Positions 22,528-47,734 of a DNA stretch of 64,000 nucleotides are shown one piece after another. The stretch is from Haloferula luteola (lineage in GTDB: Bacteria; Verrucomicrobiota; Verrucomicrobiia; Verrucomicrobiales; Akkermansiaceae). A program made the position numbers and the translations under genes. The stretch covers positions 248,001 through 312,000 of the forward strand of contig NZ_JACHFD010000003.1 in NCBI RefSeq assembly GCF_014201715.1, given 5' to 3'. Below the pieces are notes generated by a model. It was not told where the DNA came from, ran no database searches, and saw only the letters and a list, made by a program, of their open reading frames with translations. How positions within the stretch are numbered: the first letter of the stretch is position 1; every line of letters begins with the position of its first letter.

Positions 22528-22550
22528 GGACATGAGGCTCCCTCATGTCC
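22528..22550. promoter_or_regulatory. Palindrome with LysR-type ATGAG-N5-CTCAT core upstream of the porin
   Basis: Arms GGACATGAGG (22528-22537) and CCTCATGTCC (22541-22550) are perfectly complementary around CTC. The central 15 bases (22532-22546) are ATGAG-GCTCC-CTCAT, the same form as palindromes before narK (27072) and nirA (35567). It starts 11 bases after the S10 stop codon, so it could also terminate that transcript, although no T-run follows. Confidence 0.5.
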
Positions 22551-22583
22551 TACCCCCCATCGAATTCGTGGATGAAGCGCCGT

Positions 22584-22637
22584 CCCGGCATGGCAATGGC
22601 CGGGATCGCGCTTCCCAGCATGGCGTATTCCGCCATG
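22584..22637 (+). promoter_or_regulatory. Two leader hairpins, the second enclosing the porin start codon
   Basis: CCCGGC (22584-22589) pairs with GCCGGG (22599-22604). CATGGCG (22619-22625) pairs with CGCCATG (22631-22637), whose last three bases are the porin ATG. Folding of the second hairpin would hide the start codon, so translational control is plausible. Confidence 0.45.
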
Positions 22638-23906
22638 AAAAGAACACTCCTCCTCACCCTTGCCGCGGCCACGCCCCTTTACGCTGGCTCACCCGTCTCT
22701 GCCCCCGAAGTTCCCCCTGCGGAACATTGGATCAAGCCCACCCTCGATCTTCGGGCGCGCTTCGAATACGGCGATTTCGACGCCCCGGGAACTGACTCCG
22801 CCTCCGCGTTCACCCTTCGGGAACGAGTCGGATTGGTCACCCGCGACTGGCACGGATTCAGCGCCCTGATCGAAGGTGAATTCCTTCAGGCCATTGGCGA
22901 TGATTATGACTCCGCTCCCACGCCGTTCGCCACCCAAACCACTCGGCCCAACCCCGCAAACCCAACGACCCAGATCAACGACCCTGAAACCAACGAGCTC
23001 AATCAAGCCTACCTGCAATACCAAGGGTTCGATACCATCGTTCGCGCAGGACGCCAGCGCATCATCCTCAACAACGCCGCCATGGTCGGCAATGTCGGTT
23101 GGCGCCAGAACGAACAGACCTTCGATGCCATCAGCATCACCAATACCTCGATCGACGATCTCTCCCTCTACTACGCCTATGCGAATCGGGCGAATCGAAT
23201 CTTTGGCTCCGACGCCACCGGTGCCCTTCGCTCTTTTGCAGGCGACATCCACCTTTTCAACGCCACCTACACCGGATTGGGCGACCTCTCCCTCACTGGG
23301 TACGCCCTCTTGATGGACTTCGATGAAACCGCTGCCAACGCCGGTTACATCTCGAACAACACCTACGGCATCATCGCCACCCAGCCCCTCGGCCCGGTGA
23401 CCCTCTACGGCGAAACGGCCCTTCAGACCGATACCTCCAGCTCTCCCGCCAGCAAGCCGGACGAAGCCTGGTATGCTCACGTCAACGCCTCCTATCAGGC
23501 GGGCTCCCACACCTTCACCCTCGGTTGTGAATACCTGGACGCCGACTTCGTGACCCCCTTGGCCACCGTTCATGCTTTCAACGGCTTTGCCGATGCACTC
23601 ATCGGTCCGCGCCTTGGTTTGGTGCGCAATCCAGGCATCGCCGACATCTATCTGACCCACGCAACACCCCTGCCCTTCTGGGGCCTCAAGTTCAATCAAT
23701 CCATCCACCTCCTCGGAGACAACAACTCGGATCTGGACTACGGCTGGGAGTACGACGCGGTCCTCGCCAAGAAGTTCAATGAGAACTTCCTGGCCATCGC
23801 CAAGTTTGCCTACTTCGACGCCAGCGGTCCCACCGCCGGCCCCATTGCCAACCCTGCACCTTTCGACACCACTCGTTTCAGCGTCGAACTGAACTACAAG
23901 TTCTAA
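22635..23906 (+). CDS. Outer-membrane beta-barrel porin (alginate-export-like)
   Basis: A 423-residue outer-membrane protein: signal peptide MKRTLLLTLAAATPLYAG, then alternating amphipathic strands (LDLRARFEYGDF, LRERVGLVTRDWHGFSALIEGEF, IVRAGRQRIILN) and a C-terminal strand RFSVELNYKF ending in phenylalanine, as required for barrel assembly. The RERVGL and GRQ segments resemble the alginate-export porin family. Its substrate is unknown; its position before moaA and the nitrate genes, and a shared palindrome upstream, suggest nitrate or nitrite passage, which is inference. The in-frame codons before 22635 lie in leader hairpins and encode no signal peptide. Confidence 0.78.
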   Translation: MKRTLLLTLAAATPLYAGSPVSAPEVPPAEHWIKPTLDLRARFEYGDFDAPGTDSASAFTLRERVGLVTRDWHGFSALIEGEFLQAIGDDYDSAPTPFATQTTRPNPANPTTQINDPETNELNQAYLQYQGFDTIVRAGRQRIILNNAAMVGNVGWRQNEQTFDAISITNTSIDDLSLYYAYANRANRIFGSDATGALRSFAGDIHLFNATYTGLGDLSLTGYALLMDFDETAANAGYISNNTYGIIATQPLGPVTLYGETALQTDTSSSPASKPDEAWYAHVNASYQAGSHTFTLGCEYLDADFVTPLATVHAFNGFADALIGPRLGLVRNPGIADIYLTHATPLPFWGLKFNQSIHLLGDNNSDLDYGWEYDAVLAKKFNENFLAIAKFAYFDASGPTAGPIANPAPFDTTRFSVELNYKF

Positions 23907-23932
23907 GCCTCCCTTTCCGGTTGCGCGTCAGC

Positions 23933-23959
23933 AGGCTCGGAAATGGGTTTTCCGAGCCT
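23933..23959 (+). terminator. Hairpin between porin and moaA
   Basis: AGGCTCGGAAA (23933-23943) pairs perfectly with TTTCCGAGCCT (23949-23959) around TGGGT. It lies 27 bases past the porin stop. The short T-run is inside the stem, so it is terminator-like but not canonical. Confidence 0.6.
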
Positions 23960-24011
23960 ACCTCCTTCTTCCCACTGGCGCAATTCCCCATTCCGCGCCA
24001 GTTTCCCATCA

Positions 24012-25010
24012 TTGAACCCGACCGACCGTCTCCAGCGCCCCCTGCACGACCTGCGGATCTCCGTGACGGATCGTTGCAATTTCCGCTGCCGCTACTGCAT
24101 GCCCGCAGAAGAGTTCGGGGCCGACCACGCTTTTCTCCCACGCGAGGAAATCCTCACCTTTGAAGAAATCGTGCGCCTCACTCGCGTGGCCTCACGACTC
24201 GGCGTCACCAAGGCTCGCCTCACCGGCGGAGAACCCCTCCTCCGCCGCGGTTTGGACGACCTCATCGCCATGATTGCGACCGTTCCCGGCATTGAGGACA
24301 TTGCCCTCACCACCAATGGCACTTTGCTGGCCCACCATGCCGAGGCACTGGCATTGGCGGGACTCTCGCGCGTCACGGTCAGTCTCGATGCTCTGAATCC
24401 CGACACCTTCGGCCGCATGAATGGAGTCGGAGCCAAGGTCGAGCGAGTCCTTTCCGGCATCACCGCAGCGCGCACCTTTGACCTTGGCGTCAAAATCAAC
24501 TGCGTCATTCAAAAAGGCGTCAACGAACAAGAAATCCTTCCACTCGCTCGCTGGGCCGCCACTGAACAACTTTCCCTCCGCTTCATTGAGTTCATGGATG
24601 TCGGCGAAACCAATCATTGGGACGCCCGCCAAGTCGTCCCGGCCGATGAAATTCTCACTCACCTCCGCACCGAGTTCCGGCTGGAACCGCTCCAGCCCAC
24701 TCAAGCCGGTGAAACCGCCCGACGTTGGCGACTCGACAACGGACCTACCGAAATCGGCATCATCGCCTCGGTGAGCCAGCCCTTTTGTCGCGCTTGCAAT
24801 CGGCTCCGTCTCTCGGCCGATGGGCGAATCTACACCTGCCTGTTCGCCAGCCAGGGACACGACCTCCGGCCTCTCCTTCGCGGAGCTGCCGATGACAACC
24901 TCCTCGAAGCCACGCTCCGCGGTCTGTGGTCCGCCCGTGACGATCGATACTCGGAACTGCGTGGCCAAACCCACGCGCCCAAAGCAGAAATGAGTTACCT
25001 CGGAGGGTAA
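24012..25010 (+). CDS. moaA: GTP 3',8-cyclase MoaA
   Basis: A 332-residue radical SAM enzyme for the first step of molybdenum cofactor synthesis, converting GTP to the cyclic precursor with MoaC. N-terminal cluster CNFRCRYC (CxxxCxxC), TGGEPLLR, a C-terminal second cluster starting FCRACNRLRL with TCLF further on, and the conserved ending SYLGG. The TTG at 24012 (LNPTDRLQRPLHDLRIS) fits the usual family length; ATG 23943 is in frame but lies inside the hairpin after the porin gene. The other moa/moe/mob genes are 27-30 kb downstream, with the nitrate genes in between. Confidence 0.95.
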   Translation: MNPTDRLQRPLHDLRISVTDRCNFRCRYCMPAEEFGADHAFLPREEILTFEEIVRLTRVASRLGVTKARLTGGEPLLRRGLDDLIAMIATVPGIEDIALTTNGTLLAHHAEALALAGLSRVTVSLDALNPDTFGRMNGVGAKVERVLSGITAARTFDLGVKINCVIQKGVNEQEILPLARWAATEQLSLRFIEFMDVGETNHWDARQVVPADEILTHLRTEFRLEPLQPTQAGETARRWRLDNGPTEIGIIASVSQPFCRACNRLRLSADGRIYTCLFASQGHDLRPLLRGAADDNLLEATLRGLWSARDDRYSELRGQTHAPKAEMSYLGG

Positions 25011-25034: not shown

Positions 25035-25949
25035 TCAGTGCTCCCCCAATGCTTCGCCCACCATCGCGGCGATTCCCGCCAAAGTCTCTTCAATCAGGCT
25101 GAGGGGACGATCCTTGTTCCAAAATACCGCCCACTCGCGCTCGATCGATTCTTCGCCCAAGGCAATCGAAGTCAGGCTCCCCTCGTGCAGCTCTCGACGC
25201 GCCACCCAGGGAGCCACGATCCCAATCCCGATGCCAATTTTGGACATCTCCTTGATCGCCTCCATATCTCCCAGTGCAAGCGGGGCACGCAACCTCACAC
25301 CCATCTGCTCGAAGTGCTTCTCTACCAGCGCATACGTTTGCGTTGCTTTCGCGTAGATGATGAACTGAGTCTCCTCGATCTCCTCAACCGTTCTTTCATC
25401 CGTGTCGTTCCACGGGTGCACCGGAGGAGCAACGAAGATCATGCGATCCCGGAAGATCGTCCGAGACTCGGTTTCCGGATCGTCCTTTCCACGCATCCCG
25501 ATCACCACGTCGAGATCATGGGCGACCAGACTTTCCAACAAAGCAGCGGTATCTCCAGCTTCGATGCTCGGTTCGCATCGCGGAAAACAATCACGAAACT
25601 CGCGCAGAACCGTTGGCAGGAGAAACTGACAAAGGGAATGAGGAGCCCCGATCCGGATGCGAGCTTGGCCCCACCGTTTCATGCCATCCAATTCGCGGCT
25701 GGCCTGCTCCAACTCGCCGAGAATCCGTCGACATCGATTCAGGAACACCTCGCCCTCTCCAGTCAGCGTCGTTCGCTTACCCATCCGAGTCAGCAGCTTA
25801 CAGCCAAGGCTGTCTTCCAGAGCCTTCATGGAGTGACTGATTGCCGACTGCGTTAGATACAGCTTCTTGGCCGCAAGCGTGAAGCTCCCTTCATCCGCCA
25901 CAGCGACGAAGGACCGAAGTTGGCGCAGATCGGGAAGCAACTCACTCAT
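25035..25949 (-). CDS. LysR-family transcriptional regulator, probable nitrate regulon regulator
   Basis: A 304-residue LysR-type regulator: N-terminal winged helix-turn-helix (about 5-65, LRSFVAVADEGSFTLAAKKLYLTQSAISHSMKALE in pieces) and a periplasmic-binding-like effector domain (about 92-300). It is divergent from the NasS-like gene with 91 bases between starts, the normal arrangement for a LysR protein acting on its neighbour. The intergenic region has a palindrome overlapping its own start codon that fits the T-N11-A LysR box, plus ATGCC repeats. The effector is unknown; nitrate or nitrite is inferred from context. Confidence 0.88.
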   Translation of the reverse strand: MSELLPDLRQLRSFVAVADEGSFTLAAKKLYLTQSAISHSMKALEDSLGCKLLTRMGKRTTLTGEGEVFLNRCRRILGELEQASRELDGMKRWGQARIRIGAPHSLCQFLLPTVLREFRDCFPRCEPSIEAGDTAALLESLVAHDLDVVIGMRGKDDPETESRTIFRDRMIFVAPPVHPWNDTDERTVEEIEETQFIIYAKATQTYALVEKHFEQMGVRLRAPLALGDMEAIKEMSKIGIGIGIVAPWVARRELHEGSLTSIALGEESIEREWAVFWNKDRPLSLIEETLAGIAAMVGEALGEH

Positions 25950-25962
25950 GAAGGAAGCTCAT
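25948..25962. promoter_or_regulatory. Candidate LysR operator overlapping the regulator start
   Basis: ATGAA-GGAAG-CTCAT: the palindrome differs by one base from the perfect ATGAG-N5-CTCAT copies elsewhere in the cluster. It covers the regulator's start codon, so binding would suit autorepression, as is common in this family. Confidence 0.45.
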
Positions 25963-25984
25963 GAAACATTCTTCCCCAAAAAAG

Positions 25985-26018
25985 CATGCCGCATGCCAAT
26001 GCCCAATGGAGTTGGCAT
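25985..26018. promoter_or_regulatory. ATGCC repeats and inverted repeat before the NasS-like gene
   Basis: CATGCC occurs at 25985-25990 and 25992-25997, and ATGCC again from 26000. ATGCCAA (25993-25999) is inverted as TTGGCAT (26012-26018). It lies between the divergent starts and may be a second operator half or another regulator's site. Confidence 0.35.
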
Positions 26019-26040
26019 TGATCAAGCTTTGCAAATCTTG

Positions 26041-27075
26041 ATGGCTTCGCCCGATTCTCGCACCCCGATTCGCCTTGGTTTCGTTCCTCTCAACGATTGT
26101 GCGCCGGTAGCTGTTGCCAAGGAAATGGGCATCTTCGAGAAGTACGGCCTGCATGTGAGACTCTCACGCCAACCGGGTTGGGCGACCGTGCGAGACATGC
26201 TCCTCTACGGGGAATTGGATGCCGCCCAATCGATTGCGGGCTTGGCATTCCACCTCGCTCTCGGCCTCAGCCGGTTGCGCCGAGAGGTGGCGGTTCCACT
26301 CATCCTCAGTGCTCACGGCAATGCAATCACCCTCTCTAACGAAATCCCTCACGAGATCGTCGGCCAAGGCGAAGGCCTCGCTGGTTTCATCGAGCATCGC
26401 TGGAAAAAGAACCGGCCACTGACCCTCGCGGCAGCTCACCGCTACTCCTCGCATCACATTCTCATGCAATCCTGGCTTCATCGCCACGGATTGAAAGCGG
26501 GCCGCGAGCTCGAACTGGTTTTTCTCCCTCCGCCGCTCATGCCAGGGCATCTTGCCTCGGGCCACATCGATGGCTTCTGTGTCGGTGAACCCTGGAACTC
26601 CGAGGCCATCCTCAATGGCCATGGCTGGAGCCCGGTCACTTCCGCCGATCTCGCCACGGGTCACCCCGAAAAGATCCTACTCGTCGACGGCAATTTCGTG
26701 GGAGAACGCCGGGACGACACCATCGCCCTTGGCGCGGCTCTCCTGCATTCCTGCCGGCTTTGCCAGGACCCCGACTTCCTCGACGAAATGGTCCGAATCC
26801 TTTCGATGCCGGCCTACACGGGCTGCTCCGAGAAGACACTCCGCAATAGCCTAGGCCCGAAATTCAACTCGGGTCGCGGTTTTGTCGATGGCACCAATCT
26901 TCACCTCTTCTACGGGGGAGACCTGAATTGCCCCAGCGCAGACAAAGCCTCGTGGTTTCTCTCGGGCATGCGCAATACGGGCCTCCTCCCCGATAACATC
27001 ACCGCCTCCTCCCTCACTCGCCTCTACCGTCAGGATCTTTTCCGCTCATCCGAAAAAGCCCTGCTCGCGACATGA
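26041..27075 (+). CDS. Cytoplasmic NrtA/NasS-like nitrate-binding protein
   Basis: A 344-residue protein of the nitrate-binding NrtA/CmpA fold: IRLGFVPLNDCAPVAVAKEMGIFEKYGL at the start, HGNAITLSNEI, and GFCVGEPWNSEAI. It has no signal peptide or lipobox at the ATG at 26041, unlike the NrtA at 30634, so it should stay in the cytoplasm. That matches NasS, the nitrate sensor that controls the antiterminator NasT. No ANTAR-type NasT gene is in the window; the divergent LysR regulator may be its partner here, which is inference. A longer frame from 25867 overlaps the regulator and adds nothing recognisable. Confidence 0.8.
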   Translation: MASPDSRTPIRLGFVPLNDCAPVAVAKEMGIFEKYGLHVRLSRQPGWATVRDMLLYGELDAAQSIAGLAFHLALGLSRLRREVAVPLILSAHGNAITLSNEIPHEIVGQGEGLAGFIEHRWKKNRPLTLAAAHRYSSHHILMQSWLHRHGLKAGRELELVFLPPPLMPGHLASGHIDGFCVGEPWNSEAILNGHGWSPVTSADLATGHPEKILLVDGNFVGERRDDTIALGAALLHSCRLCQDPDFLDEMVRILSMPAYTGCSEKTLRNSLGPKFNSGRGFVDGTNLHLFYGGDLNCPSADKASWFLSGMRNTGLLPDNITASSLTRLYRQDLFRSSEKALLAT

Positions 27076-27091
27076 GCCAGGCTCATTGACA
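27072..27091. promoter_or_regulatory. Palindrome ATGAGCCAGGCTCAT abutting a TTGACA before narK
   Basis: ATGAGCC (27072-27078), A, GGCTCAT (27080-27086): a perfect 15-base palindrome of the ATGAG-N5-CTCAT form. Its last T is the first base of TTGACA (27086-27091), a candidate -35 box; TTGGAT at 27110-27115 would be a -10 at 18 bases. The palindrome overlaps the stop codon of the NasS-like gene. Confidence 0.5.
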
Positions 27092-27180
27092 GGATCAAAT
27101 CTCTTCCCCTTGGATTCATCGCCAGACGGATTTCTGGCATCCGGGCCGCTCCCTGATTTGCCAACTCACTGAGCGATCCC

Positions 27181-28662
27181 ATGGCCCAAGCAACTTCAGG
27201 CAACCTCCGCCTTCTCGACTTCAAGTCCCCCGCGATCCGGACTCTCCACATCACCTGGTTCGCATTCTTCCTCACTTTCGTTCTCTGGTTCAGCCACGCC
27301 CCGCTGAAGAGCGCGATCACCACGACTTTCGGCATGACCGAGGCCCAATGGAAGGCCCTGCTCATCCTCAATGTCGCGCTTACCATCCCCTCGCGCATTG
27401 CCATCGGCATTCTGGTCGACAAATTTGGCCCACGAGTCACCTACTCGCTCCTGCTCATCGCAGCGGGAATCCTTTGCTCCTTCTTTGCGCTGTCCACCAG
27501 CTTCGAAATGCTCGCGCTGGCTCGCTTCCTGATGGGATTCGTCGGTGCCGGATTCGTGATTGGCATCCGTCTCGTTGGGGAATGGTTTCCGGCCCGCCAG
27601 GTAGGACTCGCCGAGGGAGTCTACGGTGGGTGGGGTAATTTCGGCTCCGCGGCTGCCGCCATGACGCTCCCGTCACTGGCCCTTGCCTTCGGTGGCGAAA
27701 ATGGCTGGCGCTACGCCCTGCTCTCCATCGCTGCCGTGGCATTTCTCTACGGATTCTTTTTTTACCGCTCCGCTCGCGACACTCCAAAAGGATCTACCTA
27801 CTTCAAGCCCAAGAAGTCCGGAGGACTGGAAGTCTCTTCCCGGCGCGACTTCGCTTTTCTCATCGCCATGAACGTCCCCATGTTCATCGCGCTTGGCGTC
27901 CTCGCTTGGAAGCTATCACCAGCGGGGGTGAAGCTCCTGCCTGAATCCCTCGTTCAAATTCTTTACGCCGTCCTCGCGCTCCTCTTCGCCGTCCAAACCT
28001 GGCAAATCTGGCGGGTCAACGCCGACATGCTCCGGTCGGGCAAAGTCCCCGACCACCAACGCTACTCATTTCGCCAGGTCGCCATTCTCGATATCAACTA
28101 CTTCATCACCTTCGGCTCCGAGCTGGCAGTCGTCTCCATGCTTCCCGCGTTCTTTGCCGATACCTTTGGACTCAGCCCCGTGACCGCCGGCCTGCTGGCC
28201 TCCGGCTTTGCTTTCATGAATCTTGCCGCGCGCCCTGGTGGTGGGTGGATCTCTGATAAGTTCGGACGCCGCAAGTCGATGCTGATCCTCTTAGGCGGAT
28301 TGGCGCTCGGCTACCTCCTGCTCTCTCGGATCGATTCCACTTGGCCGGTCGCTCTCGCCGTCGTCTCCACCATGCTGTGCTCCTTTTTTGTCCAGGCCGG
28401 AGAAGGCGCAGTATTTGCCATGGTTCCATTGATTCAACGCCGCATGACCGGTCAAATCGCCGGCATGGCTGGAGCCTATGGAAATGTCGGGGGAGTGACC
28501 TTCCTCACCATCTATTCATTCGTCGACGCTTCCACCTTCTTCGTCATCATCGCCGCCTCGTCGATCCTTGGGTTCGTCGCCTCCCTCTTTCTCGCGGAGC
28601 CCAAAGGACACATTTCTGAAGTCGCAGAAGATGGCTCTGTTCAATTGATCGAGGTGGCCTGA
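27181..28662 (+). CDS. narK: NarK-type nitrate/nitrite transporter (MFS)
   Basis: A 493-residue major facilitator protein with 12 predicted membrane segments. It carries nitrate/nitrite porter signatures: [18 protein letters not shown] near the start, [10 protein letters not shown] in loop 2-3, [28 protein letters not shown] in helix 5 (the glycine-rich nitrate signature) and [18 protein letters not shown] in loop 8-9. It brings nitrate in, and possibly nitrite out. It has its own candidate promoter and is followed 18 bases later by the phosphatase-kinase gene, which should be co-transcribed. Confidence 0.93.
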
Positions 28663-28680: not shown

Positions 28681-30456
28681 ATGAACCACTCGCCATCCCC
28701 TACCCGTTCGGATAGACGAGGCGACGTGCATTTTCGTGGTAACATCCAATGGGAGAGTGGTCGCTTCACTGACCCCGGCCCCAAAGCGGAAAACCAGGAC
28801 TTCCTCGGCATGCGGGCGGCGGAAGGATCGCTCATGGCGACCAAAGGCATGGCCGCCTGCATCGCCGATGGCGTTTCGGCCGCTTCCGCAGCCCGCGAAG
28901 CCGCCGAAACCACGGTTCGCTCGTTTCTTACCGACTACTTCGAAACGCCCGAAAGCTGGCAGGTCAAAACCTCCGCTCAGCGTGTCCTGACCTCCATCAA
29001 TCGCTGGCTCTTCTCTCAAGGCCAACAGCATTCATCCTCAGAGAAAGGATGCGTGACCACATTCACCGCCCTGATTCTCAAATCTCGGACTGGCCACTTC
29101 TTCCACATCGGGGACTCCCGGCTCTATCGACTTCGCGAAGGGAATCTTGAACTACTCACCCGCGACCACACCACCCAGTTGTCTCCAGGAACCTGCTACC
29201 TCAGCCGCGCCATGGGGGTCACCCTCAACCCTCAAATCGACTACGATTCCTTTCCGCTCGCCCCAGGTGATCTCTTCGCCCTCACCACCGATGGCATTCA
29301 CCAATTCATTTCCCACGGCGAACTTCGACGCATTCTCAGCCTCCCCGCCTCACCTCAAGAGATCGCCGATCTCCTCGGGCAATCCACTTCTCTCAGTGAC
29401 GACAACCGCTCCGTCCTCGTGCTGCGGGTCCATACTCTCCCCGATGAAGATACCGACGACGTCTACCGCCACCTCGCCGAACTCCCCTTTCCTCCCGCCC
29501 TCCTCCCAGGCCAACAAATCGACGGACTCCGAATCGAAAAACTCCTCTCCGAGTCCCCACGCTCCCAGATCTATCAAGTCACCGACACACTCGATCAGAA
29601 TCGCCAACTCGTCCTCAAGACCCCCTCGCCACTTTACGAAGACGATCCCGCCTACCTCGAGCGCTTCGCCCTCGAAGAGTGGATCGGCCTGCGAGTCGAC
29701 CATCCCCATTTGGTCAAGGCCGTCCGTCGTTCGACACCAAAAACCTTTCTCTACCACCTCGTCGAGTGGATAGAGGGTCCGACGTTGGCGGTTTGGAGCA
29801 ACCAACATCCTCGACCCCCGATCCATCAAATTCTCGAGTGGACGCAACAATTGGTCTCCGGAGTGAGGGCCCTCCATCGCAAGGAGACTCTCCATCAAGA
29901 CCTCAAACCGGATAACCTCGTTATCGACTCCTCCGGCATCTTGAAAATCATCGACTACGGCAGCTGCCGTATTGCCGGCATGAGCGAGATTGCCAGCCCC
30001 TTTGACCGAGAGATCGCGCTCGGCACCCTCGACTTCTCGGCTCCCGAATTCCGACTCGGGGCAGCTGCCACCACACGGTCAGACCTCTTCTCCATCGCCG
30101 TCATCACCTACCACCTTCTGACCGGCGGCAAACATCCTTACGGAGAGGCTTGGCAGCGCGCACGCACTCTTCAGGACTTTCACCGTCTCCGCTATCAGAG
30201 CGCCACTCAGCATCACCCCATGGTCCCCCTGTGGATGGATGCCACCCTCAAAAGAGCTCTCTCCATCCAGCCAGAACATCGCCACGAATCGATGTCGGAA
30301 TTCGTGACCTACCTTCAGCGTCCCGATCCCGAACAACTTCCGCTTTCGGCATTGCCGCTCGCCCAAAGGCGACCTCTGCTCTTTTGGAAACTGCTCTCGC
30401 TGCTTCTGTTCATCGCATGGATCACCACCTGGATGTGGGCTTCCTCCCGATTCTAA
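28681..30456 (+). CDS. Bifunctional PP2C phosphatase / Ser-Thr kinase with C-terminal membrane anchor
   Basis: A 591-residue fusion. The N-terminal PP2C phosphatase (about 30-240) shows AENQDFLG, CIADGVS, FHIGDSRLYRLR and LTTDGIHQF. The C-terminal kinase (about 275-540) has VLKTPSP, His405-Gln-Asp407 in HQDLKPDN and Asp425 in IDYGSC (DYG for DFG). One membrane segment (about 565-585) anchors it with both enzymes in the cytoplasm. It could phosphorylate and dephosphorylate the same target, perhaps the transporter or the LysR/NasS-like proteins. Similar fusions occur next to nitrate transporters in other bacteria as I recall, but the target is not known to me. Confidence 0.9.
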   Translation: MNHSPSPTRSDRRGDVHFRGNIQWESGRFTDPGPKAENQDFLGMRAAEGSLMATKGMAACIADGVSAASAAREAAETTVRSFLTDYFETPESWQVKTSAQRVLTSINRWLFSQGQQHSSSEKGCVTTFTALILKSRTGHFFHIGDSRLYRLREGNLELLTRDHTTQLSPGTCYLSRAMGVTLNPQIDYDSFPLAPGDLFALTTDGIHQFISHGELRRILSLPASPQEIADLLGQSTSLSDDNRSVLVLRVHTLPDEDTDDVYRHLAELPFPPALLPGQQIDGLRIEKLLSESPRSQIYQVTDTLDQNRQLVLKTPSPLYEDDPAYLERFALEEWIGLRVDHPHLVKAVRRSTPKTFLYHLVEWIEGPTLAVWSNQHPRPPIHQILEWTQQLVSGVRALHRKETLHQDLKPDNLVIDSSGILKIIDYGSCRIAGMSEIASPFDREIALGTLDFSAPEFRLGAAATTRSDLFSIAVITYHLLTGGKHPYGEAWQRARTLQDFHRLRYQSATQHHPMVPLWMDATLKRALSIQPEHRHESMSEFVTYLQRPDPEQLPLSALPLAQRRPLLFWKLLSLLLFIAWITTWMWASSRF

Positions 30457-30633
30457 TTCAGGCGGGCTCGCTCAGCCTTACTTCCCCGCAGTAGCCCACT
30501 CGGTCCTTCTGGACGAGGAGCCATGCACCGCTCTCACGGATCGCATGAAAACGATGAGCCGCCGCGCATCCTTCCTTCAAGGAGATGGGCACGCATGAGG
30601 CTTGTCTCTGGGGACACCGCGAACCCCAAAAAC

Positions 30634-31989
30634 ATGAACATCCGATCCGTCTTACTCAGCACCGCCGCCCTTGTTGGAGCCCTCCATGCCGACCCGCTCG
30701 CAGTCGAGAAAAGTGAACTCAAACTCGGCTTCATCAAGCTCACCGACTGCGCCCCCATCGTCATCGCCAAGGAAAAGGGCTTCTTCGAGGATGAAGGACT
30801 TCAAGTCGAGGTCATCGCTCAATCCAACTGGAAGGTCCTCCTCGACAATGTCATTACCGGCAATCTCGACGGAGCTCATATGCTCTCAGGCCAACCCATT
30901 GCTGCCACCATCGGCATCGGCACCGAAGCCCACGTGGTGACTCCCTTCACCATGGATCTCAACGGCAATGGAATCACCGTTTCCAACTCCATCTGGGAAC
31001 AAATGCAGGAGAACGATCCGTCGCTCGATGTCGATCAGCCCGAGCATCCGATTTCTTCCGAGTCCCTCAAACCCATCGTCGAGGATCTCCTCGCCCAAGG
31101 TGAAAAACTTCAAATGGGAATGGTCTTCCCCGTCTCCACTCACAACTACGAGCTTCGTTATTGGCTGGCAGCCTCCGGTATCCATCCCGGTTTCTATTCC
31201 AAGACCGACCTCGCCGGCCGCACAGATGCGGAAGTCGAACTTTCCGTCACTCCGCCGCCGCAGATGCCAGCCACTCTCGAGGCAGGCACGATCTCGGGCT
31301 ATTGCGTAGGGGAACCCTGGAACCAACAGGCGGTCACCAAGGGCATCGGCGTCCCCGTGACCACCAACTACGACATCTGGAAGAACAACCCCGAAAAAGT
31401 CTTTGGTGTCACCCGCAAATGGGCCGACGAAAACCCGAACACTCTCATCGCCCTAACCAAGGCGCTCATCCGCGCGGGAAAATGGCTCGACGAGACCGAA
31501 GGCGATCAGCTCGTTCATCGTGAGGAAGCCTGTCGCATCCTCTCTCAGCCCAACTATGTCGGCGCCGACTATGAAGTCATCAAAAACTCTATGACCGGTA
31601 CCTTCATCTTCCAAAAATCCGATGTCCGAGACATGCCCGACTTCAACGTCTTCTTCAAACACGACTGCACCTACCCTTGGTATTCCGACGGCGTCTGGTT
31701 CCTCACCCAAATGCGCCGCTGGGGTCAGATCACGGAAGCCAAGCCTGCCTCTTGGTACCATGAAATCGCCAAAAAGGTCTACTTGCCCGAAGTCTACCTC
31801 AAGGCAGCCGAGGCTCTCGTCGCCGAGGGTCACCTCGAAGACGCCGAGATTCCTCACACGGAAGACGGCTACAAACCAGCCACCACCGATTTCATCGACG
31901 GCAACTCCTTCGACGGACACAAGCCCATCGAATACCTCAATTCCTTCCAAATCGGCATCAAGGACGACTCCTCCTTTGCCACCAAATAA
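30634..31989 (+). CDS. nrtA: Nitrate ABC transporter substrate-binding protein
   Basis: A 451-residue exported binding protein: signal peptide [21 protein letters not shown], then [41 protein letters not shown] and [13 protein letters not shown], all NrtA/CmpA hallmarks shared with the protein at 26041. It captures nitrate or nitrite in the periplasm. No lipobox cysteine is evident. ATG 30634 was chosen for its signal peptide; the frame opens at 30523. It heads a compact set nrtA-nrtB-two ATPases. Confidence 0.92.
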
Positions 31990-32070
31990 GCCGCCCTTTC
32001 TCCGCCGGCGCATCGACTTCAGGTGCGCCGGCTCCTTCCGGATCACTTTCCCGCCTCAGGCGCCACCGCT

Positions 32071-33672
32071 ATGAAATACAAGCTTCTCAAGGTCATCGAT
32101 ACCGCCGGTCTGAGCTTTCTCTCCCCGGTCGTCCGCCTCGTCACCGGCGAGGAACCCCGGAAACAACTCCAGGACATCGCCCGCTTCATTCTCGTCCCAA
32201 CCATCACCTTCCTCGCCTTCCTCTGGCTGTGGTCGGTCGTCGCCCCGAAGCACAAAACCAAAGCAGGCGAGGTTCCGACTCCTTCCGTCGTTTGGGATGC
32301 CGCCCATGGCATCTGGCGATTCCACGATCGCGAGTCCGCGAAGGAACAAGGATTTCTTCTCATCGGCTCCGCCCGCGAGTCCGAACTTCAGCGAGCCACC
32401 GCTCGTCTCAAGGAAGTCGAAGAACTCGAAACCCGTGCCCAACAACAACTCGCCACCATCCGCGATCGGTCCAAGGAACGCTTCGAAACCGCGGTGGCTC
32501 CTGCCAAAACCGCTTACGATCGCAAACGCGATGACTACCGCCAATTCCGCACTCAACAAGCCGCAGAATTGAAGGATGAAGCCGCTCTACTCCGCCATTC
32601 TGATTCCGCCACTCGCCAGGAGTTTCTCACGAAACTTCGAAGAAACGCCGAAACCGAAGAGGCCCTTAAGGCCGAGGTCGATCGCCTCAAAGCTGTCTAC
32701 TCGGAGGCCCAAGAACTCACCTTTCCCGAAGTCAAGCAGGCCATGCGCGCTGCGACCCTTCTCGGGGAGGAAAAGCAGTTCCTGACCAAATACCTCGACA
32801 TGCTCGGGGAGAGCTCGCGGGAAGAAAAACTCGCCACCGCCGAACAACGCCTCGAAGACACCCGCAGTCGCTTCCTATCGACCACTGACGAAGACCTCTA
32901 CAAACTCGGCACTAATCTCCTCAAGCAAGAGGATTTCCTCTCCACCACTGCCGACTCGCGCTACGCCAAACCTTGGACCCTTCCCAAGCAAATCGTCCGC
33001 TCCTTGCTCTGCGTCTTTACCGGCTTCCTCATCGCCTCCGCGATCGCCATTCCCATCGGCATCCTGTGTGGCCTGTCACCGACCTTCATGGCCGCGGTCA
33101 CTCCCTTCATCGCCCTCTTCAAACCCGTCTCACCCCTCGTCTGGCTGCCCATCGTCATGATCATTGTTGGCGGGTTCATGCCCGATCCGGAGAACCACTG
33201 GTTGGTGGTGGCCCTTTCGAAGGTGCCCTTCATCAAGAACTACGGCATCGATCCCATGTTCATCTCGTCTGCCATCACCGTGGCGCTTTGCTCACTCTGG
33301 GCTACCTTGGTCAATACCGCCCTCGGAGTCGGGTCCATCGACAAAGATCACATGAATGTCGCTCGTGTCCTGCGCCTGAACTTCACCTCGCGGCTGTTCA
33401 AAATCATCGTCCCCACTGCCCTGCCTCTCATCTTCGCCGGCCTCCGGATCTCTCTCGGTGTCGGCTGGATGGTTCTCGTCGCCGCTGAAATCCTCTCCAC
33501 TTCTGAAGGCATCGGAAAGTTCGTGAACGACATGTATACGAACGGATCCTCCCAGTCCTTCGCCCAAATGTTTGTGGTCGTTTTCATCGTCGGCTTCATC
33601 GGGATGCTACTCGACCGCATCATGGTCTTTCTCCAACGCCTTGTCTCTTTCGATACCGCCCCAGCACTGTGA
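32071..33672 (+). CDS. nrtB: Nitrate ABC transporter permease with a large coiled-coil insertion
   Basis: A 533-residue NrtB-type permease, almost twice the usual 275 or so. One membrane helix (about 31-55) is followed by about 230 residues outside the membrane, rich in charged residues and heptads (ATARLKEVEELETRAQQQL, then ETEEALKAEVDRLKAVYSEA), ending near TTADSRYAKPW. The standard permease domain then follows (about 305-530) with the EAA-like loop VGSIDKDHMNVARVL. The insert would project into the periplasm between helix 1 and helix 2 and may form a stalk or bind NrtA. Everything is in one frame, so it is not a fusion artefact from a frameshift. Confidence 0.88.
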   Translation: MKYKLLKVIDTAGLSFLSPVVRLVTGEEPRKQLQDIARFILVPTITFLAFLWLWSVVAPKHKTKAGEVPTPSVVWDAAHGIWRFHDRESAKEQGFLLIGSARESELQRATARLKEVEELETRAQQQLATIRDRSKERFETAVAPAKTAYDRKRDDYRQFRTQQAAELKDEAALLRHSDSATRQEFLTKLRRNAETEEALKAEVDRLKAVYSEAQELTFPEVKQAMRAATLLGEEKQFLTKYLDMLGESSREEKLATAEQRLEDTRSRFLSTTDEDLYKLGTNLLKQEDFLSTTADSRYAKPWTLPKQIVRSLLCVFTGFLIASAIAIPIGILCGLSPTFMAAVTPFIALFKPVSPLVWLPIVMIIVGGFMPDPENHWLVVALSKVPFIKNYGIDPMFISSAITVALCSLWATLVNTALGVGSIDKDHMNVARVLRLNFTSRLFKIIVPTALPLIFAGLRISLGVGWMVLVAAEILSTSEGIGKFVNDMYTNGSSQSFAQMFVVVFIVGFIGMLLDRIMVFLQRLVSFDTAPAL

Positions 33673-33705
33673 CGATGTCCTTCGCCCCGTTCTTATTTCA
33701 CGACC

Positions 33706-34614
33706 ATGAACACCCTCTCTTTTCCCATGAGACGGAACTTTCTTGAACTCGATCAGGTCTCCATCGGCTTCGGCCCCACTCCCACTCGGGTGGACATCCT
33801 CAAGGACGTCCAACTGTCCGTGGCAGAGAATGAGTTTGTCGCGATCCTCGGATTCTCCGGCGCCGGCAAATCCACGCTCATCTCTCTCCTTGCGGGCTTG
33901 GAAGCACCCACTTCGGGTGAAGTTCGCATGGCGGGAAAACGCGTGACCCGACCCAGCCCACGCCGCGGCGTGATGTTCCAATCCTATTCCCTCCTGCCCT
34001 GGCTCACGGTATTCGGAAATATTCATCTCGCGGCCCAACAGGTCTTTCCCGAGAAATCGAAAGCGGAGGTCCGCGAACACGTCGAACGCTACATCGAGAT
34101 GGTTCACCTGACCGCCGCTCGCGATAAACGCCCCCACGAACTCTCCGGCGGCATGCGACAGCGCGTCTCCCTGGCGCGCACTCTTGCCATGCAGCCTGAG
34201 GTCCTTCTGCTCGATGAACCACTCTCCGCTCTCGATGCCCTCACTCGTGCGGTCCTTCAAGACGAGATCCTACAAATCTGGGAACAGGAGAAAAAGACCG
34301 TCGTCCTCATCACCAACGATGTCGATGAAGCGATCCTCATGGCCGACCGCATTCTGCCACTGACGATGGGCCCCGAGGCATCTCTTGGTGAGGCATTCCC
34401 TGTCACCCTCGAGCGACCTCGCAATCGCCGAACTCTCACCGATCAACCCGAATATCAACATCTCAAGGCGGCCATCACCGCTCATCTCGTCGGTCTCAAT
34501 CAGGAGGCCCGCGCCCTTCGCGGAGGCAGCCTCGTGCCCATGCCTGACATCGCTCCCAAAGAATTTCACGCCCCATCAAAAATCACCGGACTGAAATGGA
34601 AGTTCTCTGCCTGA
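33706..34614 (+). CDS. nrtC: Nitrate ABC transporter ATPase with an altered H-loop
   Basis: A 302-residue ABC ATPase: Walker [10 protein letters not shown] (49-57), signature ELSGGMRQR, Walker B VLLLDEP. The switch residue normally histidine is Asn204 (ITNDVDEA), suggesting this subunit hydrolyses ATP poorly or works only in a heterodimer with the next gene product. A C-terminal tail of about 70 residues is unrelated to the core. ATG 33706 gives [11 protein letters not shown] 33727 is possible. I use nrtC/nrtD by position only; there is no NrtA-like domain fused, unlike cyanobacterial NrtC. Confidence 0.85.
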
Positions 34615-34650
34615 TCTCTCCTTTCACCTCCTCACTCACCACCTTCTCCG

Positions 34651-35523
34651 ATGCGCTCCGTAGAAATTTTCAACCTCGCCAAGTTTTACCCAAACCCCTA
34701 CGGCGAACCCTTCAAAGCCGTCGTCGACTTCAACCTAGATATCCAACAAGGTGAGTTTGTCGGACTCATCGGGCACTCTGGATGCGGAAAATCCACCGTG
34801 CTCACGATGCTCGCCGGACTCAACGAGATCTCCGATGGCGGCATCGTCGTGAATGGCCGAGAGATCGACGGTGCCGGACCTGATCGCGCCGTAGTCTTTC
34901 AATCCCCATGCCTCATGCCCTGGCTCACCGCCTTTGGCAATGTCATGCTCGGCGTCAAGAATGTCTACCCCCACGCTTCTTCGAATCAGCGCAAACAAAT
35001 TGTCGAATCCGCCCTCTCCGCCGTCGGACTGGCCGATTCGATGAAGAAGTATCCTCGTGAGATGTCAGGGGGCATGCAGCAACGCGTGGGCATCGCCCGA
35101 GCCATCGCCCTCAAACCGAAGCTCCTTCTTCTCGATGAACCCTTCGGACGCCTCGATTCCCTCACCAGGATGGAACTCCAGGACGTCATGCTCGACATTC
35201 TGCATCGGGAAAAGATCACGACCGTCCTCGTTTCCCACGATGTCGACGAAGTGGTGTTTCTCTGCGATCGGGTCGTCATGATGACCAATGGTCCCGCAGC
35301 CACCCTCGGTGAAGTTCTCAATATCGACTTCGAGCGCCCTCGCGACCGGGCAAGCCTTCTTCAGGATCCCCTGTACTTCCGTTACCTCGATCATCTTGTC
35401 TCCTTCCTCACCGAGCGCGCCCACCTGCGCACCGAACCCCGCCATTACGACTCGAAGAGCCTTCTAACCTTCACCGGCAAAAAAATCGAATCCGCAGACG
35501 AACTCTCTCAAGCCGTCGCTTGA
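34651..35523 (+). CDS. nrtD: Nitrate ABC transporter ATPase with complete catalytic motifs
   Basis: A 290-residue ABC ATPase: Walker [10 protein letters not shown], signature EMSGGMQQR, Walker B LLLLDEP and His196 in VSHDVDE. It is the catalytically complete partner of the Asn204 ATPase before it, 36 bases away. Together they would energise NrtB. The segment [15 protein letters not shown] after the H-loop is typical of the nitrate/cyanate/taurine subfamily. It ends 154 bases before nirA. Confidence 0.88.
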
Positions 35524-35581: not shown

Positions 35582-35677
35582 TCATAAGGTGACGTCGTTT
35601 CCTCCCTGAACTGCGCTCTCTGGCACTCCATCGCATGCCAACTGCTTGATTCACGCCCAAGCAACCCCTTCACCGCC

Positions 35678-37444
35678 ATGCGACTCATCAGCGAAAACAA
35701 CGGCTTCACCGGAGAACAAACCTTGTTCCTCAAAGCCTTCATTTCCGGTCTCCAACAAGGTCGGGATCTGCCCCACCTCGGTCAGGACGACCAAGGACGC
35801 TTCACCCACGAGCCTGAGGCCACAGTCCACGGGACCCCAGTCGACGACCTTTGTCGGGAAGAACGCATCAAACACGAGAAAAACGGTCTCGATTGCTATG
35901 ACACCATTCTCAACAACGCCTTGGAAAATCGATTCCCGGAGGCAGACGACGTCTTTCGCTACAAATTCCATGGCCTCTTCTATGTCTCGCCAGCGCAGGA
36001 CAGCTTCATGCTCCGATGCCGCATCGCCGGCGGAGCTCTGAGCACGCATCAATTCCGTGGGCTCGCCGAGATCGCCCAGGACTGGGGCCCAGGGCATGCC
36101 GACCTGACCACCCGCGCCAACGTTCAAATTCGCGAGATTGAACCGAAGAACTGCCCGGACGTTTTGATGAAGCTGAGCGAACTTGGTCTCACCTCCCAGG
36201 GTTCCGGAGCCGACAATGTGCGCAATATCACGGCAACTCCCACCACCGGGTTCGACCCTCACGAATTGATCGATGTGATGCCCTATGCCCGCGCCATGCA
36301 TCACTACATCCTCAAGAACCGCGACCTCTACGGTTTGCCTCGTAAGTTCAATATCTCCTATGACTCGGGAGGATGTGTCTCGGTTTGCGCCGATACCAAC
36401 GACATCGGCTTCTATGCGGTGCGTGTTCCCGAGAATGATCTAGGCGTCGAACCAGGAGTCTACTTCCGCATGCAGCTCTGCGGGATTACCGGACACAAGC
36501 AGTTCGCCACAGATTGCGGAATTCTTCTCACACCTGGCGAAACCCTTCCCGTGGCAGCGGCTCTGATTCGCATGTTCATCGAGAACGGCGACCGCACGAA
36601 TCGCAACAAGGCTCGGCTCAAATATCTCGTCGATGACTGGGGCCTTGAGAAGACCCTCGTCGAGACTCAAGCCAAGCTCGCCTTCCCCCTTCGGTACTTT
36701 CCTCTTGATGCCTGCGAGGTTCCCCGCCCTAAGGACAAACAGGGATACCTCGGCATTCACCCTCAGCCCGACGGCAAAAACTACATTGGGATTTGCACTC
36801 CAGTGGGCCGCATGAGCGTCTCCCAGATGCACGCCCTGGCCGATATCGCCGATGCGTTCGGCCGTAGTGAAATCCGTCTCACCGTTTGGCAAAATTTGAT
36901 CATCCCAGGCATCCCCGACGAACGACTTCAGGATGCCATCACCGCCATCGCCGCCACTGGTCTGGATCACCGAAATCATCACCTCACCGGTGGCCTCATC
37001 GCCTGCACAGGTAGCCGGGGTTGCAAATACGCCGCGGCGGACACCAAGGCCCAAGCCGTCGCCCTCGGTCAGCACCTTGCGGGAAAGATGATTCTCGATC
37101 TCCCCATCAACCTTCACCTCACCGGCTGCAAGCACTCGTGCGCCCAGCACTACATCGGCGACGTCGGCATGATGGGAACCCGCGTCAAGATCGACGATGG
37201 ATCCACCGTCGATGGCTACAACATTGTGCTCGGAGGCGGCGTCGACGACCAGCAAGCCATCGCCCGAGAAGTCTGGAGCAACATCAAGGCCAGTGAAATC
37301 AATGGCCTCGTCGAGCAATTACTCTGCGCCTACCTCGCCCAGCGCCACGATGGCGAATCCTTCGCCTCGTTCACCCATCGACTCTCGATCGAAGAGCTAC
37401 ACGCCCTCGTCGACACCGCCAAGCTCGCCTCGGCCGCCGCCTGA
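35678..37444 (+). CDS. nirA: Assimilatory nitrite reductase (siroheme, NirA type)
   Basis: A 588-residue siroheme-[4Fe-4S] reductase of the NirA/sulfite reductase family, reducing nitrite to ammonium with six electrons. The cluster ligands are Cys443 and Cys449 (CTGSRGC) and Cys484 and Cys488 (TGCKHSC). Two ferrodoxin-like repeats are visible (LTTRANVQIREI; LTVWQNLIIPGI). It has no NirB-type NADH/FAD domain, so it needs an external donor; ferredoxin in the classical family, with the only redox partner gene nearby being the DmsB-DmsC fusion downstream. Confidence 0.93.
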   Translation: MRLISENNGFTGEQTLFLKAFISGLQQGRDLPHLGQDDQGRFTHEPEATVHGTPVDDLCREERIKHEKNGLDCYDTILNNALENRFPEADDVFRYKFHGLFYVSPAQDSFMLRCRIAGGALSTHQFRGLAEIAQDWGPGHADLTTRANVQIREIEPKNCPDVLMKLSELGLTSQGSGADNVRNITATPTTGFDPHELIDVMPYARAMHHYILKNRDLYGLPRKFNISYDSGGCVSVCADTNDIGFYAVRVPENDLGVEPGVYFRMQLCGITGHKQFATDCGILLTPGETLPVAAALIRMFIENGDRTNRNKARLKYLVDDWGLEKTLVETQAKLAFPLRYFPLDACEVPRPKDKQGYLGIHPQPDGKNYIGICTPVGRMSVSQMHALADIADAFGRSEIRLTVWQNLIIPGIPDERLQDAITAIAATGLDHRNHHLTGGLIACTGSRGCKYAAADTKAQAVALGQHLAGKMILDLPINLHLTGCKHSCAQHYIGDVGMMGTRVKIDDGSTVDGYNIVLGGGVDDQQAIAREVWSNIKASEINGLVEQLLCAYLAQRHDGESFASFTHRLSIEELHALVDTAKLASAAA

Positions 37445-45569: not shown

Positions 45570-45639
45570 CCTCGGATTTTGAAGTGAATCGGTCGCCACC
45601 CCATCTGGAAGCTTCCGATTCGCCCGCCACCCCATCCTG

Positions 45640-46290
45640 ATGCGCCTGCTTATCATCGAAGACGATCCCCTCCTCCTGCATAGCCTCCGTGAAGGGCTGC
45701 AGGAGGAACGCTACGCGACCGACACCGCCATGGACGGCGTCGATGGCCTCGCCATGGCGCGGGAAATCGATTTCGATGCCATCGTCCTCGATGGAATGTT
45801 ACCCGGAATCGATGGCTGGGAACTCCTGCGACAACTGCGGGAGACCAAAACCACTCCCGTCCTCATGCTCACCGCTCGCGATGCCGTTCCCGATCGCATC
45901 CGCGGATTGGATGCCGGTGCCGATGACTACCTTACCAAACCCTTCGATTTCGACGAACTTCTGGCCCGGCTCCGTGCGCTGATTCGTCGCAATCACGGCC
46001 AAGCAAAAAACTATCTCGAACTGGGCGATGTCACCCTCGACCTCGCCACCCGGACTCTCAGTCAAACCGGCTCTCCCGTGGCTCTCACCCCCCGCGAATA
46101 CGCACTCGTCGAGTATCTCGGCCTTCATCGCGGTGTCGTCATCAGCCGCACCGAACTCTACGAGCACCTCTTCGACGAGAACGACGACTCCCTTTCCAAC
46201 CTGCTCGATGTTCACGTCTCGAATGTAAGAAAGAAGCTCGGCGCATCCTTCATCACCACCCGCCGCGGTCACGGCTACTCGATCGAATGA
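45640..46290 (+). CDS. OmpR-family response regulator
   Basis: A 216-residue two-component regulator: receiver domain with Asp8, Asp9 and phospho-acceptor Asp51 (VLDGMLPG), and Lys in TKPFDFDEL; C-terminal winged helix (ALTPREYALVEYLGLH, SNVRKKLG). It partners the histidine kinase whose start overlaps its stop (ATGA). It probably controls the efflux genes upstream, in the order commonly seen for CzcR/CusR or macAB systems. Confidence 0.95.
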   Translation: MRLLIIEDDPLLLHSLREGLQEERYATDTAMDGVDGLAMAREIDFDAIVLDGMLPGIDGWELLRQLRETKTTPVLMLTARDAVPDRIRGLDAGADDYLTKPFDFDELLARLRALIRRNHGQAKNYLELGDVTLDLATRTLSQTGSPVALTPREYALVEYLGLHRGVVISRTELYEHLFDENDDSLSNLLDVHVSNVRKKLGASFITTRRGHGYSIE

Positions 46291-47723
46291 AGCGCCCATT
46301 CCACTCCATTCGCTGGCGCTTGCTCCTCTGGCACTCGCTCGTCTCCCTTGGCCTCGTAGTCGCCGTCTGGCTCCTCGCCAATCGCTTGAGCACTCGCGAT
46401 CGCATGGAGCGAATCGACCGCGACCTCCACGATCACGAAAAGTCCTTCTACCGAGGCGTCTTCGCTCCCAAGAACTCGTCCAACGACAAAGACGGGCCTC
46501 CCTCCCTCGATGACATCCGAGACCGACTCCGCTCGCTGGGCAACCCCGCCATCGATCCCCCGGAGTTCCGCGACCTTTTCAAATCCGATCCCGCGGGCAC
46601 CTACATCGTCGTCTGGGACAGTGACGGCTCCTCGCTCTTCACCTCTCCCAATGCCCCAGCGGGTCTCACCCGCCCTACCAAGGTGCGCCCGGAACGCTCC
46701 GAGCGCTCCGTATGCGATCGAGGAACTTTACACGAACTCCACAGTGCCCACCCCTCCGGTATCATCACCGTGATTGGTCGGGATATCTCCACCGAACTGG
46801 GAGCTCTTTACCGATTTCGCATCCTTCTCGCCGTTGGCGGTGCCTCGATCCTCCTCGCCGCCATCGCAGGCGGTTGGTGGCTCGCCGGCCGCGCCCTCAA
46901 ACCCATCCATACCATCTCACAAACCGCCTCCCGCATCGCTGCGGGGAAACTGGAAGAACGCATCGCCATCCCCGACCGCGACAACGAGTTGGACCAACTC
47001 GCCCACGTCCTGAACGACACCTTCGATCGCCTCGCCTCGGGCATAGAGCGCCAAAAACGCTTCACCGCCGATGCCTCCCACGAGCTCCGCACTCCGTTGA
47101 CCATCATCCTCACGGAAACCCAACGGGCCCTCCGCTCCGAACGCGACCCCGCCCAGTACCGGCAGTTTCTCGAAAACTGCCAAACGGCAGCTCAGCGCAT
47201 GCGCGGGATCGTCGATTCCCTCCTCGTACTGGACCGCCATGATGTCGGCGCCGAATCACGAGCCCATCGTCCCTGCGATCTGGCGGAAATTGCCCGCGGC
47301 GTGACGGACCGCCTCGCCCCCCTCGCCCAAGAACGCGGCAGCAACCTTCATCGCCAGCTTTCACCTGCCCTCGTCGGAGGGGACCCTGAGTGGCTTGAAA
47401 CCGCCGTTCAAAACCTCCTTTCCAATGCACTCTCCCATCCTCCTGCAGGCACCTCGGTCTCCGTTCGCTGCGGCCACCGGGGAGGAGAAAGCTATGTGGA
47501 AGTCCACGACGAAGGTCCCGGCATCCCGCAGGAACATTTGCCTCGGCTTTTCGACCGATTCTATCGGGTCGACCGCGCTCGCACCCAAACTCAGGGACAT
47601 ACCGGACTTGGGCTCGCCATTGTTCAAACCATCGCCACCGCCCACCACGGACGGCTCGAGGTCACCAGCAACGCCGGGCAGGGCACCACCTTTTGCCTGA
47701 CATTTCCTCATCTCCCTTCATGA
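46287..47723 (+). CDS. Sensor histidine kinase
   Basis: A 478-residue membrane sensor kinase: two membrane helices (about 10-30 and 175-198) flank a periplasmic sensor of about 140 residues, followed by a HAMP domain, the phospho-acceptor His265 (DASHELRTPLT), and an ATPase domain with NLLSNALSHPP, DEGPGIP and TGLGLAI. It phosphorylates the response regulator encoded immediately upstream. The sensed signal is unknown. Its stop overlaps a weak copy of the nitrate-cluster palindrome. Confidence 0.94.
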   Translation: MKRPFHSIRWRLLLWHSLVSLGLVVAVWLLANRLSTRDRMERIDRDLHDHEKSFYRGVFAPKNSSNDKDGPPSLDDIRDRLRSLGNPAIDPPEFRDLFKSDPAGTYIVVWDSDGSSLFTSPNAPAGLTRPTKVRPERSERSVCDRGTLHELHSAHPSGIITVIGRDISTELGALYRFRILLAVGGASILLAAIAGGWWLAGRALKPIHTISQTASRIAAGKLEERIAIPDRDNELDQLAHVLNDTFDRLASGIERQKRFTADASHELRTPLTIILTETQRALRSERDPAQYRQFLENCQTAAQRMRGIVDSLLVLDRHDVGAESRAHRPCDLAEIARGVTDRLAPLAQERGSNLHRQLSPALVGGDPEWLETAVQNLLSNALSHPPAGTSVSVRCGHRGGESYVEVHDEGPGIPQEHLPRLFDRFYRVDRARTQTQGHTGLGLAIVQTIATAHHGRLEVTSNAGQGTTFCLTFPHLPS

Positions 47724-47734
47724 ATCCGCATCAT
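47720..47734. promoter_or_regulatory. Weak copy of the nitrate-cluster palindrome before the nitrate reductase
   Basis: ATGAA-TCCGC-ATCAT keeps the ATGA/TCAT ends and the T-N11-A spacing but has changed inner arm bases compared with ATGAG-N5-CTCAT. It ends 83 bases before the nitrate reductase start. Confidence 0.3.

Follow-up and report, generated by a model that had tools for sequence, protein, structure and literature searches.

In Pseudomonas sp. ADP, the LysR-type gene of AtzR, a regulator of the cyanuric acid pathway, lies divergent from its target and is transcribed from a sigma-54 promoter that AtzR represses itself, and the protein binds at a recognition site (RBS) and an activation site (ABS). 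To our knowledge, only the regulator's own promoter is of the sigma-54 type in this system. Nac of enteric bacteria is a LysR-type regulator that acts on sigma-70 promoters, while its own gene is expressed from a sigma-54 promoter when nitrogen is limiting; we know of no nitrate-specific composite for it. Antitermination by NasS-NasT or NasR governs assimilatory nitrate operons, and Proteobacteria utilize sigma-54 plus a nitrate-specific layer. Here, a window of 64,000 nucleotides from the verrucomicrobium Haloferula luteola (Akkermansiaceae; contig NZ_JACHFD010000003.1, positions 248,001 to 312,000) was analyzed, in which the palindrome ATGAR-N5-CTCAT recurs upstream of a porin gene, a putative sensor gene and genes for nitrate and nitrite use, and is followed by predicted sigma-54 promoters. 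This palindrome is probably the primary operator of the LysR-type regulator encoded at 25035-25949 and would add nitrate/nitrite control to these promoters.

LysR-type operators are defined by a T-N11-A dyad (PMC4834489), and a layout has been described in which the dyad overlaps the regulator's own divergent promoter and a tetramer occupies two sites (PMC4834489, PMC4486848, PMC6628147). The operators of BenM and CatM carry this dyad as ATAC-N7-GTAT, and the tetramer that binds it also occupies a second site, but the model there uses a sigma-70 promoter (PMC6628147). NtcB is a LysR-type, nitrite-responsive activator of cyanobacterial nitrate assimilation (PMC5318462, PMC4390856), and its joint action with NtcA is named in the title of a reference cited in PMC4834489. 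The Haloferula locus resembles the NtcB system in the proposed LysR-type control of nitrate assimilation beside a global nitrogen regulator, and its LysR protein matches NtcB (PDB 8h3v) with an E-value of 5e-20. However, the cyanobacterial partner NtcA belongs to the CRP family, whereas the partner here would be sigma-54, and the proposed regulon includes a porin. NtcB (75 bits) is also not the closest LysR protein of solved structure, as 5y2v, a Rubisco operon transcriptional regulator, reaches 101 bits and 8sbf reaches 81. In comparison to AtzR, the target promoters here look like sigma-54 promoters as well. The likeness to NasS-NasT lies in an NrtA-like, probably cytosolic protein beside the cluster and in the apparent combination of sigma-54 with a nitrate-specific layer. 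The ANTAR domain of NasT was not found in 18 same-genus genomes, that of H. luteola included, and matched in three of 145 genomes of the family, two of them over the cut-off; since 14 control genomes gave no match, the sensitivity of this search rests on these two. The lack of ANTAR matches in the genus fits a LysR protein that would replace NasT as the nitrate-specific layer.

A preliminary description of the window had located four exact copies of the palindrome, and the pattern scan found them at these places (22532, 25948, 27072 and 35567). Counted strand by strand, the window contains seven matches, against a mean of 0.21 in dinucleotide shuffles of its sequence, and none of 100 shuffles reached seven. 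The weaker fifth copy proposed at 47720 looks real too: the relaxed pattern ATGA-N7-TCAT recovers it and yields five matches where 0.99 are expected, a count that no shuffle reached. All copies have the T-N11-A spacing of a LysR-type operator, as described earlier, and their centres lie 96, 86, 102, 104 and 91 bp upstream of the corrected starts of the porin, sensor, narK, nirA and nasA genes. For three genes the start was shifted, likely to ATG 22635 for the porin (signal peptide), ATG 26041 for the sensor gene behind LysR and ATG 47818 for nasA. As originally reported, two copies overlap stop codons, namely 27072 and the weak one at 47720, and the copy at 25948 overlaps the start codon of LysR. 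An overlap with a further start codon at 22545 was dropped as an artefact of a longer porin open reading frame, the only one whose start the palindrome at 22532 overlaps. Throughout the genome of H. luteola (4.9 Mb, 84 contigs), a scan that the preliminary description had proposed found ATGAR-N5-YTCAT at 15 places, four of them within the 25-kb cluster and 11 elsewhere (about two per Mb), and the motif is not randomly spread. Three of the palindromes elsewhere (L010, L013 and L008) precede genes that we read as mqo-like, pgi-like and cydA-like. Palindromes outside the window, those near these genes included, have no exact sigma-54 element and were set aside as background.

Conservation was assessed in the 75 of 145 family genomes with a LysR match at E <= 1e-40, H. 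luteola included, by retrieving up to 20 kb around the best LysR match from the 74 others (1.21 Mb in total). These loci contain 102 matches to ATGAR-N5-YTCAT, compared with 1-19 for the same arms at 15 other spacers. Within 250 bp upstream, and counting, window included, only genes whose match started in the first 30 residues of the query protein, the palindrome precedes the porin in 16/28 cases, the sensor gene in 27/38, narK in 5/9, nirA in 9/18 and nrtB in 5/14. By the same count, its exact form was not found before nrtC (0/29), nrtD (0/24), the kinase (0/8), the iron-sulfur (Fe-S) gene (0/6), moaA (0/5) or nrtA (0/3). Relatives thus have the palindrome ahead of genes of the same types, with none before nrtC or nrtD. 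Upstream of LysR it is present in 21/73 cases, a count that leaves out same-genus sites overlapping the LysR start codon, and 11 of 22 sites lie within 25 bp of the LysR start. In the genus itself, window included, 11/11 porin and 16/17 sensor-gene upstream regions carry it. Additionally, three porins (L248-L250) keep the motif although no nitrate gene was recognised within the 12 kb examined, so that neighbourhood can hardly explain the membership of the porin in the regulon. Together, the enrichment in the cluster, the conservation before the same kinds of gene and the three isolated porins support the earlier reading of the palindrome as the operator of a nitrate regulon that includes the porin.

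That reading overlooked the sigma-54-type promoters that follow the sites; they alter the mechanism and bring in a possible rival binder, a sigma-54 activator. Alignments of the upstream regions contain YTGGCA-N8-GCT after most palindromes. When the distance was left free, 53 palindrome-promoter pairs fell at 55-59 bp from the palindrome centre to GG, and no other 5-bp bin held more than six, except for 27 pairs at -45, a peak that is the mirrored LysR promoter. A scan of the inner spacer recovered GG-N10-GC in 66/212 cases, compared with 3-15 for N6-N9 and N11-N14. GG and GC at ten bases from each other represent the -24/-12 geometry of sigma-54 promoters, and the genome encodes RpoN as well as an AAA+ activator. 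In the window, the elements of the porin, sensor and narK genes are exact (Table 1). In the gap between LysR and the sensor gene, the palindrome has the predicted LysR promoter on one side and, on the other, the LysR reading frame, whose start codon it touches. It thus falls within the divergent promoter region of the regulator itself, as LysR-type operators do, and the promoter at 25983..25999 would place it just downstream of the LysR transcript start. Sigma-54-like elements appear to precede LysR in other genera too.

For searches across the family, palindrome and sigma-54-type promoter were combined into one composite pattern, which matched in 58/145 genomes, while a reversed control pattern matched in one. 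Its 112 matches comprise 68 with a spacing of 55-60 bp, 17 with 46-48 bp, 19 with 34-39 bp and eight with other values; the three classes, chosen after seeing the data, are about one helical turn apart, and the two shorter ones belong to other genera, in which the palindrome lies nearer to the promoter. H. luteola has three exact composites, all inside the window. Twenty further composite loci were selected from matches that lie away from the LysR loci; in 19 of them, the porins of L248-L250 included, the composite immediately precedes a porin, narK, nirA, nrtA, nrtB or sensor-like gene, with L256 as the exception. In addition, a degenerate second copy of the palindrome tends to follow 22 bp downstream, with a mean of 5.59 of 10 matching positions against a background of 2.82 (z = 7.0) at the 29 sites that are not in the LysR/sensor gap, including two (window nirA and nasA) added by hand; in the other spacing classes the signal is weaker (z = 2.9 and 2.5). 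Peaks at +/-13 in the offset scans were read as self-overlap of the motif ends. In three same-genus porin upstream regions (L052, L059 and L060), a different dyad, GTGCG-N5-CGCAC, is located at +22, and an extra ATGAR-N5-YTCAT lies 26 bp upstream of the main palindrome.

Palindrome counts alone were discarded as a measure, as each of the 145 genomes has 1-45 sites and the counts fail to separate genomes with and without LysR. The composite does separate them: class-spaced composites occur in 52 genomes, 50 of which have LysR, and the other two are 72% and 83% complete (Fisher p 1.5e-17, with classes defined post hoc and related genomes that are not independent). Eight genomes without LysR contain a loose composite, six of them only with spacings outside the three classes. 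Similarly, nirA is present in 48 genomes, 46 of them with LysR, and the same-genus genome G093 is without LysR, nirA and composite at the thresholds used.

The proposed mechanism unites porin, sensor protein, NarK, NirA and nitrate reductase in one regulon, in which LysR would add a nitrate/nitrite layer to genes that predicted RpoN control ties to nitrogen supply. A LysR tetramer may hold the palindrome, centred 57-59 bp before -24, together with the weaker copy 22 bp closer to the promoter. The inducer is assumed to be nitrate or nitrite by analogy with NtcB, and induced LysR would permit or assist the opening of the sigma-54 complex by an AAA+ activator whose gene lies elsewhere. Candidates for this activator are an NtrC-like protein and a member of a second group with an unconserved DNA-binding helix. 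The activator would act without a conserved site of its own, and the second group is a candidate for acting from solution. From the other side of the same palindrome, LysR could block its own sigma-54 transcript.

Several observations weigh against this mechanism. No LysR protein has an AAA+ ATPase, which sigma-54 polymerase needs, and the centre of the primary site lies at about -82 in the main class, given the predicted placement of -24, and not near the -65 expected of LysR sites. The second copy is absent from the 27 LysR/sensor sites and poor at the window porin (1/10), the exact palindrome was not found before nasA in 12 upstream regions, and the elements of nirA and nasA each need a mismatch in GG (CG). 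The nasA element lies 58 bp away, so that the predicted promoter of its weak palindrome is correctly placed. Furthermore, 25/75 LysR genomes are without a composite, and in genus g8 the sensor gene is found in none of 19 LysR loci examined and the composite in one (L095). The LysR recognition helix fails to distinguish genomes that carry the composite from those that do not, and the genomes compared are related, so that the counts are not independent.

In another explanation, the palindrome is the enhancer of an NtrC-type AAA+ activator of sigma-54 and LysR is only one target gene, like nac in enterics. A centre near -82 is no less fitting for such an enhancer than for a LysR site, and this position and a fixed helical phase are typical of enhancers. 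Sigma-54 promoters need an activator of this kind, and at least one is encoded in each of the 145 genomes. A search upstream of 88 sites detected no further conserved dyad of the enhancer type, which makes the palindrome the obvious enhancer; some 7-mers upstream of it exceed shuffles (20/88 versus at most 14), but were read as probable LysR coding sequence because the sensor-gene sites adjoin the LysR gene. Nevertheless, a general activator should mark non-nitrate genes, whereas the further composite loci with one exception precede porin, nitrate or sensor genes and the exact composites of H. luteola are confined to the window. The helix GISRRTLQRKL of the NtrC-like activator is kept in G000, G048 and G093 and in three of four genomes read from genus g3 (G028, G038 and G100; G002 differs), yet the composite was not found in G093 or in any of the 19 g3 genomes searched. 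In the second activator group (L166, L271, L269, L274 and L275), read in G000, G048, G093, G061 and G050 and not among six g3 proteins read, the otherwise well conserved protein has a different DNA-binding helix in each of the five genomes, while the palindrome arms stay constant. Further activators are not available in every composite genome, as G114 yields a total of two matches, whose scores agree with these two groups. An enhancer of an NtrC-type activator is regarded as unlikely; as binder of the palindrome itself, LysR is rated probable and a sigma-54 activator improbable.

Alternatively, LysR could bind the palindrome while TGGC-N9-GCT is not a sigma-54 promoter and transcription starts from a nearby ordinary sigma-70 promoter. 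Sigma-54 use is predicted from sequence, and two of the five target-gene elements in the window deviate in GG; on the other hand, the spacing optimum is exactly GG-N10-GC, RpoN is present and the same element is found on both strands of the LysR/sensor gap, which leaves this explanation very improbable. The preliminary description had dismissed coding constraint as an explanation. The idea that chance or coding constraint created the repeats, which draws on the ATG and TGA of start and stop codons within ATGA/TCAT and on the 11 copies elsewhere in the genome, is already contradicted by the shuffle counts, the spacer-5 excess, the fixed promoter distance, the GG-N10-GC optimum and the copies at porins away from nitrate genes, and its chance of being right is negligible.

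With LysR preferred as the binder, Verrucomicrobiota would gain a defined nitrate regulon that is open to testing and whose operator and promoter code can be read, an orphan porin family would be assigned to nitrate use, and a LysR-type operator would be placed in a fixed register with sigma-54-type promoters. The parts of the literature surfaced by our search contain no described nitrate case of such a pairing. If LysR truly licenses sigma-54 transcription, the question arises of how a regulator that has no ATPase manages this. One tentative, rather doubtful answer is that a helix-phased LysR tetramer serves as the enhancer-bound partner of sigma-54 polymerase and replaces the DNA-binding arm of an AAA+ activator acting from solution, with the nitrate signal coming from the stand-alone NrtA-like sensor. 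This would define a class of LysR-licensed sigma-54 promoters that run an entire nitrate regulon, together with its porin, throughout one verrucomicrobial family.

Table 1. Palindromes, predicted promoter elements and genes in the window (distances of promoter elements are from the palindrome centre).
Feature	Position	Strand	Remarks
Primary palindrome of porin gene	22532..22546		Centre 96 bp before ATG 22635; pattern scan
Predicted sigma-54 -24/-12 element of porin, TGGC-N9-GCT	22597..22612	+	59 bp
Outer-membrane porin-like barrel	22635..23906	+	Alginate_exp and Opr porin matches, both below cut-off; start moved
moaA-like gene (molybdenum cofactor synthesis), behind porin	23943..25010	+	
LysR-type regulator, proposed palindrome binder	25035..25949	-	
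Palindrome in LysR/sensor gene gap	25948..25962		Overlaps LysR start codon
Predicted sigma-54 promoter of LysR gene	25983..25999	-	Back to back with sensor-gene promoter
Predicted sigma-54 promoter of sensor gene	26013..26028	+	59 bp
NrtA/NasS-like (NMT1_2) domain protein, likely cytosolic sensor	26041..27075	+	
Palindrome before narK	27072..27086		Overlaps sensor-gene stop codon
Degenerate second copy (narK)	27094..27108		22 bp downstream; 7/10 positions
Predicted sigma-54 promoter of narK	27135..27150	+	57 bp
narK-family nitrate/nitrite transporter	27181..28662	+	TIGR00886 just over cut-off
PP2C-Ser/Thr kinase and NrtABCD-type ABC transporter genes	28681..35523	+	No palindrome of their own
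Palindrome before nirA	35567..35581		
Degenerate second copy (nirA)	35589..35603		22 bp downstream; 7/10 positions
Predicted -24/-12 element of nirA	35631..35646	+	58 bp; one mismatch (CG for GG)
nirA-family nitrite reductase	35678..37444	+	NF007126 over cut-off
Weak palindrome before nitrate reductase	47720..47734		Overlaps histidine kinase gene stop
Degenerate second copy (nasA)	47742..47756		22 bp downstream; 7/10 positions
Predicted -24/-12 element of nasA	47784..47799	+	58 bp; CG for GG
Nitrate reductase, NasA-type by best match	47818..50082	+	Below NCBIfam cut-off; start moved

Matches to Pfam and NCBIfam give the gene order porin-like, MoaA, LysR, NMT1_2, NarK, PP2C-kinase, NrtABCD-type transporter, NirA and Fe-S/DmsC fusion, and the NasA-type reductase follows after unrelated genes, together with MoeA- and MobA-like genes. 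The intervening region (39245-47723) encodes a subtilase, a MacB-type efflux system and a two-component pair, which separate nirA and the Fe-S gene from the nitrate reductase; in relatives' loci such as L055 and L258, the Fe-S gene is directly followed by nasA. Among solved structures, the NMT1_2 protein is closest to the C-terminal regulatory domains of NrtC/CmpC (E 6e-49), followed by NrtA (3e-32), and this stand-alone protein thus most resembles the regulatory domain that is fused to NrtC in cyanobacteria. The NrtC-like ATPase of the cluster (33706-34614) is, at 302 aa, too short to contain that domain. A PP2C phosphatase-Ser/Thr kinase fusion (28681-30456) is encoded downstream of narK, ahead of the nitrate ABC transporter genes, and several relatives also have it after narK. 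The closest named relative of the LysR protein is that of Haloferula sargassicola (88%), and other carriers of this LysR include Luteolibacter and Haloferula. In genus g8, four loci (L084, L085, L089 and L091) have LysR without a sensor neighbour and two palindromes 32 bp apart, one or both of them imperfect, which precede LysR's own sigma-54-like promoter. Finally, at locus L263 (genome G133), another LysR gene, distantly related (about 31% identical), and another sensor-like gene diverge in the same way from a composite that lies between the two.

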